DNA of 64,000 nt from Guyparkeria halophila (GTDB lineage: Bacteria; Pseudomonadota; Gammaproteobacteria; Halothiobacillales; Halothiobacillaceae). The stretch's first letter is position 1. Each line of letters starts with the position of its first letter. Positions 9,035 through 34,895 of this stretch are shown here, piece by piece. Both the position numbers and the translations under genes were made by a program. The stretch is from contig NZ_CP140153.1 in NCBI RefSeq assembly GCF_034479635.1, forward strand, positions 193,501-257,500, read 5' to 3'. Under the pieces are notes generated by a model, which was not told the origin of the DNA, ran no database searches, and was given only the letters and a program-made list of their open reading frames with translations.

Positions 9035-9511
9035 TTACGGACGAACCAGCACGTAACCGGCGTCGACCAGGTCGAGGATGCGGGCAATGCCGGCCTCGAC
9101 CGGCTGGGCGGCCGAGTTCATCTCGGGCTCCTTGCCCAGCTTGCGCGTCGCGCCGGCAATCGAGTTCTTGCAGGCGGAAAAGCGCACGCCTTGATCGGCG
9201 AGTGACTGGATGCGCTCGGCGTGATGGTTGTTGGCAAACAGCATGCTGATGCCGGGACCGAAGGCAACCACTTCCACGTCGATCTGGTCCGGGCCACCAC
9301 GCGCCTTGAGGACGTTGTTGGCGACGTTGAGTACCAGGTTCTGGCGTTGCAGATCGCTTTCGGTGATCTGCAGGACCAGGTGTTCCTGGGCCAACGTACT
9401 ACCGCCGACCTGCTTGATCTTTTCCATATCGGCGGCATGCACGGCACTGCCGAAGGAAAACGCTGCGAGCAGCATCAGCCACGCGGCCGGGAACAGGGAA
9501 CGAACTTTCAT
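9035..9511 (-). CDS. periplasmic DsrE/DsrF-like family protein
   Basis: 158 residues. A Sec-type signal peptide is evident (MKVRS, then a hydrophobic stretch, then SAVHAA with cleavage around residue 26). The mature part has the DsrE-like pattern: QNLVLNVANNVLKARG, then VEVVAFGPGISMLF, and QGVRFSACKNSI with a single conserved cysteine, as in the small DsrE-like family formerly called DUF1791. Cytoplasmic DsrE proteins take part in sulfur relay; a secreted version may handle sulfur species or bind small molecules in the periplasm, but its job is not established. AAGGAGG lies just upstream of the ATG. It is monocistronic, with its own terminator. Confidence 0.8.
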   Translation of the reverse strand: MKVRSLFPAAWLMLLAAFSFGSAVHAADMEKIKQVGGSTLAQEHLVLQITESDLQRQNLVLNVANNVLKARGGPDQIDVEVVAFGPGISMLFANNHHAERIQSLADQGVRFSACKNSIAGATRKLGKEPEMNSAAQPVEAGIARILDLVDAGYVLVRP

Positions 9512-9922
9512 GAAAATCCTCCTTGAGTGGTTTTCGTGGTTTTCTAATTGTCACGGGTGTGAATTGCATCCCGTCGATCAGCATACGCCCGAGCAAACGG
9601 AATCGCAGCCCTTTAGTCGGTTAATTATCAAATGGGGTATCAACGAATCTTGGGGCAAAATCGATCGCGAGGTGGGCTTTTTTGCGATGCGGCACGCAGC
9701 CCAAGGTCCCGTTGGCCAAGCTGTTGACCTGACGCTATTTTTTAGCGAACATATCGATTATTCGATCGGTGGGCTCTCTGCCTGCCCCGTCCCCGCGTGG
9801 CTGCGACGTTGCCCAGCTCGTTGCCGATTTGTGTCCGGACGGACCGTCGACCCAATCCAATCTTCATGGCATGCCAGACGACCCGTCGCATGCCGTGGCG
9901 CAGGCGTTGTTGCTCAGATTAC
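9512..9922. other. 411-bp AT-richer intergenic region
   Basis: The divergent gap between the DsrE-like gene (minus) and the phosphatase gene (plus). It is clearly more AT-rich than its surroundings. It contains TTGACC at 9724-9729 followed by a T-run, a possible -35 for the phosphatase, but no convincing -10 at the right spacing. Promoters for both genes should lie here. No coding region or RNA gene was recognised. Confidence 0.5.
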
Positions 9923-10780
9923 ATGACGTTATTCAAACAGCTTTTGAAGAACCCGCGGGGTCGGGATTTCATCGTCGGCGATCTGCACGGCAGTCGGCCG
10001 CTGCTGGAAAAGATCCTCGCCAAGCACGACTTTTCCCCCGAGCGGGATCGTGTCATTGCCGTGGGGGATCTGATCGATTTCGGCGAGGATTCGCTGGGCA
10101 CGCTGCGCCTGCTGGGCGAGCCCTGGTTTTTCTCGGTGGCCGGCAACCACGAGCGGGTGATCGCCAATCATCGCGACGCGCTCGCCGAACGATGCCTGAC
10201 CAAGAGCCAGCGCGCCGACCTCAAGGCGATGGGCTCGGCTTGGCTACTGGAGCCCTACGACAAGCTCAACGACGACAAGTGGGACGACCTGATCACCGAG
10301 GTGATGAACCTGATCAGCCAGATGCCGTTGATGATCCAGGTCGGCAATGGACCGGCGGCCGTCGGGGTGGTGCACGCCGAGTTGCCGCTATGGGACTGGG
10401 ACCAGAACATCGCCCGGCTCGAGCGGGTCAAGAAGCTCAGCTACTGGGGCTCGGCAAAGGCCGATCCGCAGCTCGACACGATGCTCTGGGGGCGCTCGCA
10501 GGTCCACGAGGTGCTTGACGGACGCCGCCCGGAACGCAGCGTGCGCGGTATCGACTGGGTCATCGCCGGGCACACGATTACCGGCCAGCCGGTGCGTGAC
10601 GGCAATCGCCTCTGGATCGATTGCGGCGCCTGGGACGAACGCCCCGGTCGGGGACTGACGCTGGTCGAGGTGGGTGACACCCTGGCCGTGAGCGCGCACT
10701 ACCACGATCCCAGTGTGCGGACCCACCGGTTCGTGCGCCGCGGGCATCACTTCCATTCCGTGATTGACGCGACCGGCTGA
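9923..10780 (+). CDS. PPP-type serine/threonine phosphatase or related metallophosphoesterase
   Basis: 285 residues of the calcineurin-like PPP family (PrpA/PrpB/lambda phosphatase branch). Seen: GDLHG (19-23), GDLIDFG (48-54) and GNHE (74-77), which carry the Asp, His and Asn ligands of the dinuclear metal site, and later histidines in VVHAEL and IAGHT. In most relatives the second motif ends DRG, where Arg contacts the phosphate; here that position is Phe, so activity or substrate may differ. Start choice: the ATG at 9923 gives MTLFKQLLKN directly before the first motif; the 42 upstream codons lack homology-like features. A 60-codon ORF follows after five bases and is probably co-transcribed. 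Confidence 0.82.
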   Translation: MTLFKQLLKNPRGRDFIVGDLHGSRPLLEKILAKHDFSPERDRVIAVGDLIDFGEDSLGTLRLLGEPWFFSVAGNHERVIANHRDALAERCLTKSQRADLKAMGSAWLLEPYDKLNDDKWDDLITEVMNLISQMPLMIQVGNGPAAVGVVHAELPLWDWDQNIARLERVKKLSYWGSAKADPQLDTMLWGRSQVHEVLDGRRPERSVRGIDWVIAGHTITGQPVRDGNRLWIDCGAWDERPGRGLTLVEVGDTLAVSAHYHDPSVRTHRFVRRGHHFHSVIDATG

Positions 10781-10785
10781 TCCCC

Positions 10786-10968
10786 ATGTCTGATCTCGAT
10801 CGTTTTTCTCTGACGGACCTGCGTCGCCTGATCGACGTGGCGCGCGCGGAACTCGACCGCCGCGACAGCGAACCGGTTGACGAACAGACGGCGCTCAAGT
10901 CGCTGGAGTTGGAGCTCAAGCGACATCATCGGCGCAAGAACGAGGATCGCTTCGACCCCTTTGCCTGA
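10786..10968 (+). CDS. small hypothetical protein (60 aa)
   Basis: Not recognised. A short, highly charged, helix-prone protein beginning [17 protein letters not shown] and ending DRFDPFA, with no membrane segment or cysteines. It begins five bases after the phosphatase stop codon and ends just before a terminator, so it appears to be the last gene of a two-gene unit. Codon use looks like its neighbours. It may be a partner or regulator of the phosphatase, but only position supports that. Confidence 0.55.
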
Positions 10969-29798: not shown

Positions 29799-31817
29799 TT
29801 ACAGCAGTCGCACGCCCAGCAAGGGGCGGATGGCCTCGGCGACCGTCGGGCGACCGATCAGGTAACCCTGGAAGGAGTGGCAGCCAAGCGCGTCCAGCAG
29901 ATCGCGCTGATCGGCGGTTTCCACCCCTTCGGCGATGATCTCGAGCGACAGGGCGTTGCCCATGGCGATGATCGCCCGGACGATCTCCAGATCGTTGCGG
30001 TCGCCGAGGATGTCGCGCACGAAACCCTGGTCGATCTTCAGCCGGTCGAACGAGAACCGCTTGAGGTAGCTCAGCGAGGAATAGCCGGTGCCGAAGTCGT
30101 CCAGCGCCAGCTTCACGCCCAGTTCGCGCACCGCATCCAGCATCGTTGCCGCCTGTTCAGGGTCATGGACCAGCGCGGTTTCGGTGAGTTCCAGTTCCAG
30201 TCGCTCCGGGGGCAGGCCGGATACCTCCAGGGCGCGGGCGACGCGCTCGGCAAAGCAGCGGGCGTGCAACTGAACGCTGGAGACATTCACCGAGACGGTG
30301 ATCGCCTCGCCGGTCTCGCGGCCCCATTCGGCGGCCTGGCAGGCCGATTCGGTCATCACCCAGCCACCGACCTCGACGATCAGTCCGGATTGCTCCAGGA
30401 AGGGGATGAAGTCCTGCGGGCCGCACTGTAATTGCGGATCGGGGGCGTCCCAGCGCAGCAGGGCCTCCACGCCCGTGACGGCCAGGCCGAGGGCGTCCTG
30501 CTGGATCTGGTAGACGAGATGGAAACGCTCGTTTTCCAGGCTGTCGCGCAGGGCGCCCAGCATCTCCGAGCGCCAGATCTGTCGCTCCGAGAGCTGTGGA
30601 CTGAACACCGCCACGGGCTCGCGTTCGTTCTTCTTCGCCTCGAACATGGCCGCATCCGCCTGGGTAAGCAGCTGGGCGATGTGGCGGCTGTGGGACGGCC
30701 AGTAGGCAATGCCGGTACTGGCGGTCAGGATCAGGTTGGTGGTCTCGAGCTCGAAGGAGTGACGCACCAGCTCGCGCAGCGCCCCGCCCAGCACCTCGGG
30801 GCCATCGCTGGGTTCGACGTCGCCGGCGAGGATGGCGAACTCGTCGCCGGCGAGCCGCGCGACCAGCCAGTCCTGCTGGGCACCCAGGTCGCGCAGTCGG
30901 TCGGCCATCTGGCGGATCACCCGATCGCCCTCTTCGTGCCCGTGGCAGTCGTTGATGCTGCGGAAACGGTCGAGGTCGAGCACCGCGACCGCCGCGTGAC
31001 GGTTCTCGCGGCCCAGTTCGTCGAGACGGCGCTGGGCTTCGATCTGGAAGAAGCGACGGTTGTAGAGATGGGTCAGTTCGTCGTGGATGGCCAGGTCTTC
31101 GTATTCGGCCTGGGCGCGCAGCTGGGCGGTGATGTTGCGCGCGATCACGATCATGGCATGCCGCTGGCCGTCGGCGTCGAAGACCGGTTGCTTGATCGTG
31201 TCGAAGACCTGTTCCTCGCCTTCCGGCGATTTGATCACTTCGCTCTCGCGATGGAGTTCATTGGCCTTCCAGGCGCGCTCGTCGGATTGGCGGCAGAAGT
31301 AGAAGGCATCCCGGAAGGCCGGTTCGGTCAGCTCGGCTAATGAGTCGTCGCCCTGCCCCCACCAGGGCAGGCCCTCGAGGCGGAACAGGTCGAGCGCCGC
31401 CTGGTTGGCCAGCAGCCAGCGCCCCTGGCCGTCCTTGATCTGGATCACGTCTGGACTGGCGTCGATCAGCAGGCGGACCAGGCGCTCGGTCTCGGCCAGT
31501 GCCGATTCGGCGCGCTTCTCACCGGTGACGTCCTGCAGCAGGTGCAGTTCACGTGGGGTGGCGGCGGGATCGGGATGCGATCCCAGGTGAAGGTGGCGAT
31601 AGATGCGGTGGTCCGCATCCTCCCTGGTCGGATGACTGAACAGCCGAGGAGAGGTGTCACCCTCGCGGTCGTCGAACATGCCCTCGAGCTTGCTGCTGGC
31701 CGGCATCGCGCGCGCCGCCCGATTGATCAGGCACAGCCGGCCGTCGGCATCCCGGCCCACCAGCGGGTCCGGCAATGCCTCGAGCCAATGCGAGATATCG
31801 TGTTGGCGATCCATCAT
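29799..31817 (-). CDS. PAS-GGDEF-EAL c-di-GMP turnover protein
   Basis: 672 residues, no membrane segments, so cytoplasmic. Two PAS-type regions (about 5-100, degenerate, and 110-230, clear) precede a GGDEF domain and an EAL domain. The GGDEF signature is AGDEF (323-327), a variant compatible with activity, with no RxxD inhibitory site before it. The EAL domain keeps EALLRW (451-456), LDDFGTGYSSL, LKIDQGFV and EGVET, so phosphodiesterase activity is likely. Its start overlaps the stop of the PfkB-Rieske gene by four bases (ATGA), so the two are translationally coupled; the PAS domains may sense a redox or small-molecule signal linked to that protein (inference). Confidence 0.9.
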   Translation of the reverse strand: MMDRQHDISHWLEALPDPLVGRDADGRLCLINRAARAMPASSKLEGMFDDREGDTSPRLFSHPTREDADHRIYRHLHLGSHPDPAATPRELHLLQDVTGEKRAESALAETERLVRLLIDASPDVIQIKDGQGRWLLANQAALDLFRLEGLPWWGQGDDSLAELTEPAFRDAFYFCRQSDERAWKANELHRESEVIKSPEGEEQVFDTIKQPVFDADGQRHAMIVIARNITAQLRAQAEYEDLAIHDELTHLYNRRFFQIEAQRRLDELGRENRHAAVAVLDLDRFRSINDCHGHEEGDRVIRQMADRLRDLGAQQDWLVARLAGDEFAILAGDVEPSDGPEVLGGALRELVRHSFELETTNLILTASTGIAYWPSHSRHIAQLLTQADAAMFEAKKNEREPVAVFSPQLSERQIWRSEMLGALRDSLENERFHLVYQIQQDALGLAVTGVEALLRWDAPDPQLQCGPQDFIPFLEQSGLIVEVGGWVMTESACQAAEWGRETGEAITVSVNVSSVQLHARCFAERVARALEVSGLPPERLELELTETALVHDPEQAATMLDAVRELGVKLALDDFGTGYSSLSYLKRFSFDRLKIDQGFVRDILGDRNDLEIVRAIIAMGNALSLEIIAEGVETADQRDLLDALGCHSFQGYLIGRPTVAEAIRPLLGVRLL

Positions 31818-33121
31818 CCCCGATCCTTCATCCCATTGGGCTTCTCAGCAAGCGCCCCCGAGGGCGTTTCTCGTTCATCTCGCCGAGTTGCACGATCGGC
31901 CAGGTAGAGGCGGTTGCCGATCTGTTCCAGATCGACGGGTTCGAGCCGTTGCCCTTCGCAGGGACCGGCGGTGCACAGGCCATCGTCGAGACGGAAATAG
32001 GCCTGATGCACGTTGCATCGCAGCTGTCGCTCACCCTCGCGGGTTTCGAGAAAATCGTGCCGATCGCGCGACAGCGGCGAGCCGTTGTGCGGACAGACAT
32101 TGCGCCAGGCACAGACCCGTTCGCCCTCGCGGACCACGATCAGTGGTGCCGGTCCGCCGGACGACTCGCGCCCCTGCGGCCAGATGCCCAGGGCGTCGAC
32201 CGGCTCGAGGTCATCAAGCCGGCAAAGCAGGTCCGGGTCGGCGGCCGGGTCGTCGGGTCCCAGCCCGGCCAGTCCGGCCTGGGACAGCTTGCGCTCGGCC
32301 AGTCGCACGGCGAATTCCAGCGACTCCAGCGACCCCATGCCGCGTGCGCGGGCGTGGATGAATCCGGCGATCAACGTGTCGCCGGCGGCGATGCTGTCAA
32401 TGATCGTATCGACCGGTTGGGCCGGAACATGAGCGGGCTCGTCCTCGTCGGGGCGTGACAGCCAGGCCCCGCCGCTGCCCCAACCGAGCACCAGGATCGC
32501 CTGCGGCGCCCAGCCACGGGCCTCGCGCAGGAAGGCCGCCGGCTGATCGAAGCCGCGGCCGCGCGCGAAGGCGGCGGAGAAGAAGATGATGTCCGGGAAC
32601 GACCAGAGCTGGTCGAGCGCCGGGCGATCCTTCTCCACCTCCAGCGAGATGGGTTGGTCGGTGACCCGTGCCCGGACCAGCGCGAGCATGGCGGCGGTCT
32701 CGTCGCAGGCGCGCGCCTCGAAATGCAGCCAGTCGTATTGGCTTGGGTCGAGGGCCATGAACGCGCCCAGGTCGAATTCCGGCAGATCGCGGTAGTGCAC
32801 GATCGTGCGGCTGCCGGTGGCGCGGTTGACGGTGATGTAGGACGTCGGCGCGTGGCCGTCCACCCGGCGCGCGTGGCGGGTCTCCAGGCCGTATCGATCC
32901 ATCAGGTCACTGATGCGCCGCCCGTCAGCATCCTCGGCCAGCACCCCGGCGAAATCACAGGGATGGCCGAACTGACGCAGCACTCGCAGGCTGTTGGCGA
33001 CATTGCCGCCCAGCTCGACCCGCTGGGACAGTGCGCGCTGCTCGCTGTCCTCGGCCGGGTAGTGATCAAGCTCGTTGATGATGTCCAGCGTGGCAATCCC
33101 CACGCCCAGCACGTTCGCCAT
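31814..33121 (-). CDS. PfkB sugar kinase fused to a Rieske [2Fe-2S] domain
   Basis: 435 residues with two parts. Residues 1-300 are a PfkB/ribokinase-family kinase, closest in pattern to ketohexokinase: VGIATLDIINELDHYPAED, GGNVANSLRVLRQFG (GGN at 38-40), and the ATP/anion-hole segment DTIIDSIAAGDTLIAGF. There the usual GAGD is AAGD, with the catalytic Asp (248) kept. Residues 325-410 are a Rieske domain: CPHNGSPL (Cys343, His345) and CNVH (Cys369, His372), the full C-x-H...C-x-x-H cluster set, as in ferredoxin/nitrite reductase small-subunit types. There is no stop or frameshift between them. It is the fifth gene of a putative six-gene operon and overlaps the GGDEF-EAL gene. The substrate and the reason for the fusion are unknown. 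Confidence 0.9.
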   Translation of the reverse strand: MANVLGVGIATLDIINELDHYPAEDSEQRALSQRVELGGNVANSLRVLRQFGHPCDFAGVLAEDADGRRISDLMDRYGLETRHARRVDGHAPTSYITVNRATGSRTIVHYRDLPEFDLGAFMALDPSQYDWLHFEARACDETAAMLALVRARVTDQPISLEVEKDRPALDQLWSFPDIIFFSAAFARGRGFDQPAAFLREARGWAPQAILVLGWGSGGAWLSRPDEDEPAHVPAQPVDTIIDSIAAGDTLIAGFIHARARGMGSLESLEFAVRLAERKLSQAGLAGLGPDDPAADPDLLCRLDDLEPVDALGIWPQGRESSGGPAPLIVVREGERVCAWRNVCPHNGSPLSRDRHDFLETREGERQLRCNVHQAYFRLDDGLCTAGPCEGQRLEPVDLEQIGNRLYLADRATRRDERETPSGALAEKPNGMKDRG

Positions 33122-33160: not shown

Positions 33161-33706
33161 CTACGTGTCCCGGCCGCGCTTGGGGAGAGTCATGACCTCG
33201 ACCCACCACTCGTCCGCGGTGGCGGTCAGACGCAGAAAGCCGATGCCGCCGAAGGCCCGCTGGCGCCCGGCGGCGCCCGGATTGAGGATCCAGGGGGTCG
33301 TGTCGGTGTCGATCACGCGGCGATGGGTGTGGCCGTAGACGATCGCGCGCGCCTCGGGATGGCGGCCTCGCAGTCGCTCGTGGCGGCGCCTGGCGGGGTT
33401 GACGCGATGCCCGTGCTCGACCACCAGCAGCCCGCCGGGCAGGGTCAGGTACGCCTGTTCGGGCAGGGTGTCGAGCAGCGCCTCGGTTCCTTCCGGCCAC
33501 TGGTCGGGGGTGTCGTTGTTGCCGCGCACGACCACCACGTGGCCGCTGGTCGGCGTGAGCTGGCGCAGTTCGCCGGGATCGAGCAGGTCGCCGGCATGGA
33601 CGATCACGTCCACTTCGGCCAGCAGCGGCAACAGGGCACGCTCGAGCGTGCCGTGCGTGTCGCTGATCAGGCCGACCGTGACCCGGTCGCGGTCACCGAG
33701 ATCCAT
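33161..33706 (-). CDS. YfcE/MJ0936-type metallophosphoesterase
   Basis: 181 residues. Calcineurin-like phosphoesterase of the small YfcE group, which hydrolyses phosphodiesters in vitro. Motifs in order: VGLISDTHGTLE, IVHAGDLLDPGEL, VVVRGNNDTPD, VVEHGHRVNP and VYGHTHRRVID, giving the full dinuclear metal site. The ATG at 33706 (MDLGDRDRV) overlaps the end of the permease gene by 14 bases, so it is probably coupled to it; the longer in-frame extension is rejected. Confidence 0.88.
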   Translation of the reverse strand: MDLGDRDRVTVGLISDTHGTLERALLPLLAEVDVIVHAGDLLDPGELRQLTPTSGHVVVVRGNNDTPDQWPEGTEALLDTLPEQAYLTLPGGLLVVEHGHRVNPARRRHERLRGRHPEARAIVYGHTHRRVIDTDTTPWILNPGAAGRQRAFGGIGFLRLTATADEWWVEVMTLPKRGRDT

Positions 33707-34895
33707 CCCGGTCTTGTGAACACCCACAGGCTCCCTCCCCTGATCCGTGGCCTGGCACCCGCCGGGCCGGCCGGCGGCGCCAGTAGGCGTGAATGGTGAC
33801 GGAGGCGAGCACCGCCAGCGCGGCCAGCCCGATCCCGTTCGCGTCCATGGCATGGTCGGCCGCCGCGCCGCTCGGCAGGCTCCAGTCGAACACGCCCCAC
33901 AACAGATCCAGGCTGATCCCGGCGACCAGGGCGCAGGCGATCACGGTCACGAGGTACACCCCGATCAGGCGATTGCCGAAATGCTTTCTCAGTATGCCGA
34001 GCGTGCCGATATTGGTCGCCGGTCCGGCCAGCAGGAACACCAGCGCCGCCCCCGGCGACATGCCGGCGACCAGCAGGCCGGCGGCGATCGGGGTGGAGGC
34101 GGTCGCGCAGACGTACATCGGGATGCCGATCACCGCCATCAGGGCATAGCTGCCCACCAGCCCCCAGGCGTTGTCGAAAAAGCCCTCCGGGATCAGCACC
34201 ACCGCGGTGGCGGCGATGGCCAGGCCAAAGACCATCCACGGCACGATGTCGATCAGCACCTGGCCGAAGGCATAGGAAAAACCACCGGCGAGGCGCTCGC
34301 GGGTACCCGGCGCCGCGGCGTCCGTCGTCGTTGGGCTGCCGCAGCAGGCGTTCGACGTGGATTCGCCCTCGTCGCAATGGCCGGTGCTCGACGGGTTGGA
34401 GTCACAGCAGGCGGCGGTGGGTTTGCTCTCCTCTCCACCACAGCAGTCGGTGGCGACCGAGTCGTTTGTCGCGGCTGACTCGGGCGTCATTGACCCGGCC
34501 AGCCGGCCGCTGATCAGCCCGGTGACGATCGCGCCGATGATCGCCGCGATCGGGCGGGCGATGGCATAGACCGGCCCGAGCAGCCCATAGCTGACGCTGA
34601 TCGAGTCCGGCCCGGTCTCCGGTGTCGCGACCAGGAAGGCCATCGACGGCCCGCGCCCGGCACCGGCGTCCTTCAGCCCCAGCACCGCCGGCACCACGCC
34701 GCAGGAACACAGCGGCAGCGGCGCGCCGATCAGCGAGGCCCGGACGATCGCGCCGGTCGACTCACCCGAGAGGTATTTGACGATTGCCAGCTGGTCGGAG
34801 AATGCCTTGATCAGCGCGGCGATCACCAACCCCAGCAGCAGCCAGGGGGCGGCCTCCAGCGTCAGGAACCACAGCTCGTTGAACCATTGCATCAT
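33693..34895 (-). CDS. SO_0444-type Cu/Zn efflux permease with cysteine-rich loop
   Basis: 400 residues. A permease of the DUF318/ArsP-like group: N-terminal half with LTLEAAPWLLLGLVIAALI and the metal-site motif PLCSCGVVP (Cys63, Cys65), C-terminal half repeating the fold with PMYVCATASTPIAAGLL and LAGPATNIGTL. The central loop (about 140-195) carries CC at 151-152, CC at 163-164, His173-Cys174 and CC at 184-185 in a hydrophilic, Ser/Thr/acidic context, as in the SO_0444 family linked to copper/zinc export. The C-terminus adds a GCGCS-like pair. It is the third gene of the putative six-gene operon; AlgR-like regulator upstream, phosphoesterase overlapping downstream. Confidence 0.87.
   Translation of the reverse strand: MMQWFNELWFLTLEAAPWLLLGLVIAALIKAFSDQLAIVKYLSGESTGAIVRASLIGAPLPLCSCGVVPAVLGLKDAGAGRGPSMAFLVATPETGPDSISVSYGLLGPVYAIARPIAAIIGAIVTGLISGRLAGSMTPESAATNDSVATDCCGGEESKPTAACCDSNPSSTGHCDEGESTSNACCGSPTTTDAAAPGTRERLAGGFSYAFGQVLIDIVPWMVFGLAIAATAVVLIPEGFFDNAWGLVGSYALMAVIGIPMYVCATASTPIAAGLLVAGMSPGAALVFLLAGPATNIGTLGILRKHFGNRLIGVYLVTVIACALVAGISLDLLWGVFDWSLPSGAAADHAMDANGIGLAALAVLASVTIHAYWRRRPARRVPGHGSGEGACGCSQDRDGSR

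Follow-up and report, generated by a model that had tools for sequence, protein, structure and literature searches.

Pairing of a ketohexokinase-like kinase with a Rieske iron-sulfur module in Gammaproteobacteria

In many bacteria, a ketohexokinase (KHK)-like sugar kinase is paired with a Rieske iron-sulfur module, either in a single protein or as neighbouring genes. The single-protein form is found in a family of sulfur bacteria, where the kinase closely resembles human fructose kinase; together with the neighbouring genes, this suggests a tie between sugar phosphorylation and redox state. The pairing is well supported. Because of the fusion, the constant order of the pair, and purifying selection on both domains, it is likely that kinase and Rieske are functionally linked. 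The main evidence that the two may work together is their occurrence as separate neighbouring genes in many bacteria. The pairing is recurrent, with a kinase resembling fructose kinase on one side and an iron-sulfur module on the other, and it connects CO2 fixation in bacteria to a ketohexokinase like that of humans. No description of KHK-Rieske pairing was found in the literature searched (open-licence papers); an initial sequence-only reading had named prior characterisation of the architecture as a point that would count against it.

A fused kinase-Rieske gene and its two domains

The window, by which we mean the whole stretch of DNA analysed, is 64,000 nucleotides from Guyparkeria halophila. 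Reading open frames on its minus strand, positions 33121..31814 form one unbroken frame of 435 codons, from ATG to stop. On the plus strand, a frame begun at 31814 runs into a stop codon. Hence, the uninterrupted frame reported earlier, with no strand given, is confirmed on the minus strand. The encoded protein (435 aa; 31814..33121, minus) joins a ketohexokinase-like PfkB domain, approximately residues 1-288 (32258..33121, minus), to a Rieske domain, approximately residues 297-412 (31886..32233, minus). This composition, also part of the earlier reading, is borne out by domain searches. PF00294 matches residues 4-284 (E 3.3e-24; 86.2 bits, against a curated cut-off of 25.8) and PF00355 matches residues 325-391 (E 2.8e-8, also above its curated cut-off). 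The AlphaFold2 model of the fusion, made with 46 sequences, has a pLDDT of 92.0 and a pTM of 0.80.

The gene is kept in the order to which the window belongs. A genome search returned a match in 26 of 27 genomes of the order, and the full-length fused frame is present in 25 (24 extracted, plus the window's own genome). In one of the remaining two genomes (64% complete), the gene is split into two pieces across two contigs; the other (85% complete) has no match. Therefore, a frameshift or assembly error, the check proposed with the sequence-only reading and one for which we found nothing in favour, is rejected as an explanation of the fusion. Furthermore, purifying selection acts on both domains. 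Compared with seven relatives, dN is 0.02-0.16 and dS 0.26-0.63 for the kinase; the equivalent values for the Rieske domain are 0.03-0.16 and 0.24-1.79. Variation is higher in the linker and, most of all, in the C-terminal tail.

The solved chains closest in sequence to the kinase are ketohexokinases (human KHK, 2hqq; phmmer E 1.2e-46). The model also aligns with human KHK-C bound to fructose (6ul7) over 287 residues, with Z 41.5 and rmsd 1.3. For the mammalian structures together (2hqq, 6ul7, and 3nbv), the fold is shared over 287 residues at rmsd 1.3-1.4 and ~35% identity. According to Trinh et al. (2009; PMC2651755), direct contacts of KHK with fructose are D15, G41, N42, N45, and D258. According to a sequence alignment with KHK, these five correspond to D13, G39, N40, N43, and D248 of the fusion. 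All are unchanged in 74 of 74 relatives, and E135 (human E139) is conserved in 72 of them. The kinase is thus nearest to KHK by both sequence and fold, with the fructose-contact residues so listed in place. Because of these residues, phosphorylation of a ketose at C1 is the likely reaction. There are also differences from mammalian KHK. Human Tyr112 is replaced by His109, invariant among the 74 relatives; note that the mouse KHK sequence has His at this position in the KHK alignment. The solved mammalian chains, of ~300 residues, have no Rieske domain, whereas the family of the fusion kinase is bacterial, with hosts that mostly bear RuBisCO.

Motifs in the kinase include GGN at residues 38-40 and AAGD, with Asp248, at residues 245-248. 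Assignment to the PfkB family follows from PF00294 above cut-off, the di-Gly motif, and xAGD, whose Asp is catalytic. The sequence-only reading had placed these motif residues correctly, along with Cys343, His345, Cys369, and His372 of the Rieske domain. It had also taken AAGD, in place of GAGD, as a hint of altered catalysis. This we rule out. E. coli ribokinase RbsK, which shares the PfkB fold and differs in its ~19% identity and lack of a Rieske domain, has AAGD with the catalytic Asp at residues 252-255. In the kinase family itself, both GAGD and AAGD occur, and A246, G247, and D248 are invariant (74 of 74 relatives).

In the Rieske alignment, PF00355 matches 52 of 52 family members. Residues C343, P344, H345, C369, and H372 are invariant in all 52 sequences, as are C383, G386, P387, and C388. 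Hence, the domain has both the CxH...CxxH ligands of a Rieske protein and a PF00355 match above cut-off. Since comparison of the whole-chain model with known structures gave matches over residues 1-291 only, the Rieske part was folded by itself (pLDDT 90.6). The closest structures are oxygenase ferredoxins and the NirD-like protein 3c0d, at Z of ~12; for Rieske ferredoxin 2qpz, Z is 12.3 and rmsd 2.6, with 99 residues aligned. The oxygenase ferredoxins (2qpz, 3gce, and 1vm9) and 3c0d share the fold and the CxH...CxxH ligands. Unlike them, the Rieske studied here is fused to, or adjoins, a kinase gene. In addition, among the solved relatives aligned, 3gce has Cys at the second extra position only, whereas C383 and C388 are both invariant in the fusion Rieske family.

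Pairing across Gammaproteobacteria

We sampled 369 gammaproteobacterial genomes, calling KHK at E below 1e-30 and the Rieske family at E 1e-12, with at most 12 Rieske candidates scored per genome. This KHK is present in 102 genomes. At 9 of the 102 loci, the Rieske is fused to the kinase. At 30 more, it is encoded by the adjacent same-strand gene downstream, and at a single locus by one upstream; the other 62 are unlinked, 4 of them near a contig edge. The sequence-only reading had suggested a search for the architecture across genomes. The fusion does recur; the separate neighbouring genes, both downstream and upstream, had been missed. Because 30 pairs have the Rieske downstream, and one upstream, the usual order is kinase then Rieske, the same as in the fusion. 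The 30 downstream pairs are spaced by -29 to +21 bp, with 14 at -4, when measured using the start codon nearest the stop, a choice that favours small gaps.

The KHK and the Rieske family co-occur moderately across genomes. Thus, at E 1e-12, a Rieske of this family is found in 60 of 102 genomes with KHK and 83 of 267 without. For 20 of the 62 unlinked KHK loci, the Rieske is present elsewhere in the genome. Because 42 of 102 KHK-positive genomes show no Rieske of this family at that cut, and 83 KHK-negative genomes carry one, the kinase can work without the Rieske and the Rieske without the kinase. Where the Rieske family occurs without KHK, the adjoining genes are varied.

Fused copies are found in three places in the kinase tree: in the window's order with one relative (L065), in the clade of Hydrogenovibrio contig L009, and at L066. 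Parsimony needs three changes on this weakly supported tree, and the AU test does not reject one clade for all the fused copies (p-AU 0.278). A surface signature of Rieske-linked kinases, apparent in all 74 rows, did not survive when the set was thinned to 27 linked and 26 unlinked copies. In the thinned set, no kinase residue separates the linked copies (288 positions; best p 0.004). Separately, a gene of the same CxxGPC Rieske family lies 9 bp downstream of a different, non-KHK-like PfkB kinase in one genome (L147, 1321-2652).

Carbon assimilation and a possible role

Genomes with this KHK mostly encode RuBisCO. At E below 1e-60, RuBisCO is found in 93 of 102 KHK-positive genomes versus 81 of 267 KHK-negative genomes; at Pfam's own cut-off, the counts are 94 and 93. 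The E-value cuts were chosen after the tables were viewed. With one genome per family, the sole control for kinship in these counts, the figures are 39 of 43 versus 34 of 114 (odds ratio 23). Among the nine KHK-positive exceptions, three have the RuMP enzyme HxlA above cut-off, in two copies each, and another, G180, has a weaker RuBisCO match. The phosphoribulokinase family gives a full match in four of the nine (G180 included) and a two-piece match in one. Note that, where RuBisCO is absent, phosphoribulokinase is weak evidence for the CBB cycle, since the model also matches in E. coli. One exception, G235, has a match to neither HxlA nor phosphoribulokinase. Linkage to the Rieske does not track RuBisCO: kinase and Rieske are linked in 6 of the 9 KHK-positive genomes without RuBisCO.

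Our tentative preference is that, in bacteria assimilating C1 compounds, a ketose-1-kinase is coupled to a Rieske redox module and would salvage ketoses according to electron supply. The likelihood of this we place a little short of even. The kinase would use ATP to convert D-fructose, or a similar free ketose, to the ketose 1-phosphate. In the same chain, the soluble Rieske [2Fe-2S] module would report, or pass on, the redox state. The setting would be C1 assimilation via sugar-phosphate cycles, the CBB cycle or, in a few hosts, RuMP. Free ketoses, lost from such cycles through phosphatases, would be returned to metabolism by the kinase, and the Rieske module would tie the ATP use of the kinase to electron supply. 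For this scheme, we infer the catalytic activity and substrate of the kinase, its role in salvage, assembly of the cluster, and gating by the Rieske alike.

A narrower version adds our guess that C383 and C388 form a redox-active pair near the cluster. The protein would then be a ketose kinase gated by redox in CO2-fixing bacteria, in which the Rieske cluster and the Cys383/Cys388 pair switch ketose-1-phosphate formation with electron supply. We regard this version as decidedly doubtful. If true, an iron-sulfur module would control a sugar kinase connected with C1 assimilation. In chloroplasts, the CBB cycle is under thioredoxin control; to our knowledge, no such control of the cycle is known in these bacterial lineages. 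Should the Rieske control the kinase, this would be a new way to tie sugar phosphorylation to redox state.

Rieske ferredoxins are, in their general role, electron carriers. The Rieske could instead carry electrons to a distinct redox enzyme in this pathway, with the fusion keeping the carrier at hand and the kinase ungated. This is a real possibility, if well short of an even one. It is consistent with the closest solved Rieske relatives, oxygenase ferredoxins and NirD, and with the same Rieske family being carried by the 83 genomes without KHK. It is also consistent with an FAD oxidoreductase-like gene that follows KHK, with no linked Rieske, at 5 of 60 loci surveyed (see below). However, no oxygenase is found among the annotated neighbour genes, which are part of all neighbours, and the usual order of kinase then Rieske, with tight spacing, points to the kinase itself.

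Alternatively, the kinase may act on a substrate other than free fructose, such as sulfofructose, xylulose, sedoheptulose, or a pentulose phosphate, with the Rieske forming part of that pathway. The next fold match after KHK is indeed E. coli sulfofructose kinase YihV (7ag6 and 7agh; Z 34.4-34.5), which has the same fold, and the family accompanies carbon-assimilation cycles, rich in ketose phosphates. Even so, YihV is less similar, with lower scores and ~25% identity compared to 36% for KHK, and is without a Rieske domain. Furthermore, the five direct fructose contacts, as listed in the KHK study cited above, are present. On balance, a different substrate is unlikely. Far less probable is that the fusion is a neutral accident, in which translationally coupled neighbours lost a stop codon without any functional link. 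Little change would be needed for fusion, given that 14 of 30 separate pairs overlap by 4 bp, and the single origin that the tree does not reject also fits. Set against this are recurrence of the pairing in 40 of 102 KHK-positive genomes and the purifying selection on both domains.

Genes around the pair

In the window, the next gene upstream of the fusion encodes a YfcE-type metallophosphoesterase of 230 aa (33161..33853, minus; PF12850, with TIGR00040 above cut-off). All 24 loci of the order that were compared (L013-L036) have a homologue upstream of the fusion. Downstream, a PAS-GGDEF-EAL protein of 672 aa, identified using Pfam, is encoded at 29799..31817 (minus), and its start overlaps the fusion stop by 4 bp. 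A GGDEF-EAL homologue is downstream of the fusion in 18 of the 24 loci, each viewed with ~1.5 kb of flank. Upstream of the metallophosphoesterase is an ArsP_1-type permease with a Cys-rich stretch (33693-34895, minus).

Outside the order, KHK neighbours differ between loci. We surveyed 60 loci (L065-L124) for a third partner, grouping neighbours by BLAST cluster and annotating some copies. None of three candidates is general. The first, a gene of BLAST cluster 2, immediately precedes KHK in the same orientation at 8 of 60 loci. Copies annotated in this cluster are at L067 (cNMP-binding, rhodanese, and FGE) and L118, and the cluster also contains other FGE proteins. Large cNMP-binding and rhodanese proteins adjoin the KHK gene, the Rieske gene, or both at L067 (3332-8164), L118 (3434-8509), and L125 (5268-7445). 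Long copies have a C-terminal FGE-type domain, and the protein occurs in several genomes, some without KHK. The second candidate, an SBF-family transporter gene, is downstream of KHK or KHK-Rieske at 7 of 60 loci. Copies were annotated at L107 (3488-4495) and L094 (7427-8422), with that at L107 matching PanS best, below the PanS cut-off.

The third candidate is the FAD oxidoreductase-like gene, directly downstream of KHK without a linked Rieske at 5 of 60 loci (L089, L092, L098, L100, and L105). The L089 copy (9265-10867), the sole copy annotated, is DAO-type by Pfam. The gene product may serve the pathway as a redox partner, which would speak against simple gating or stand beside it. At four of these five loci, the gene is followed by a Fur-like gene. 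Finally, at 4 of 20 loci with a Rieske and no KHK, the Rieske gene adjoins a pair of ABC-type genes, for an ATPase and a permease, assigned by Pfam at L127 (3040-4592) and by BLAST cluster at L128, L129, and L142.
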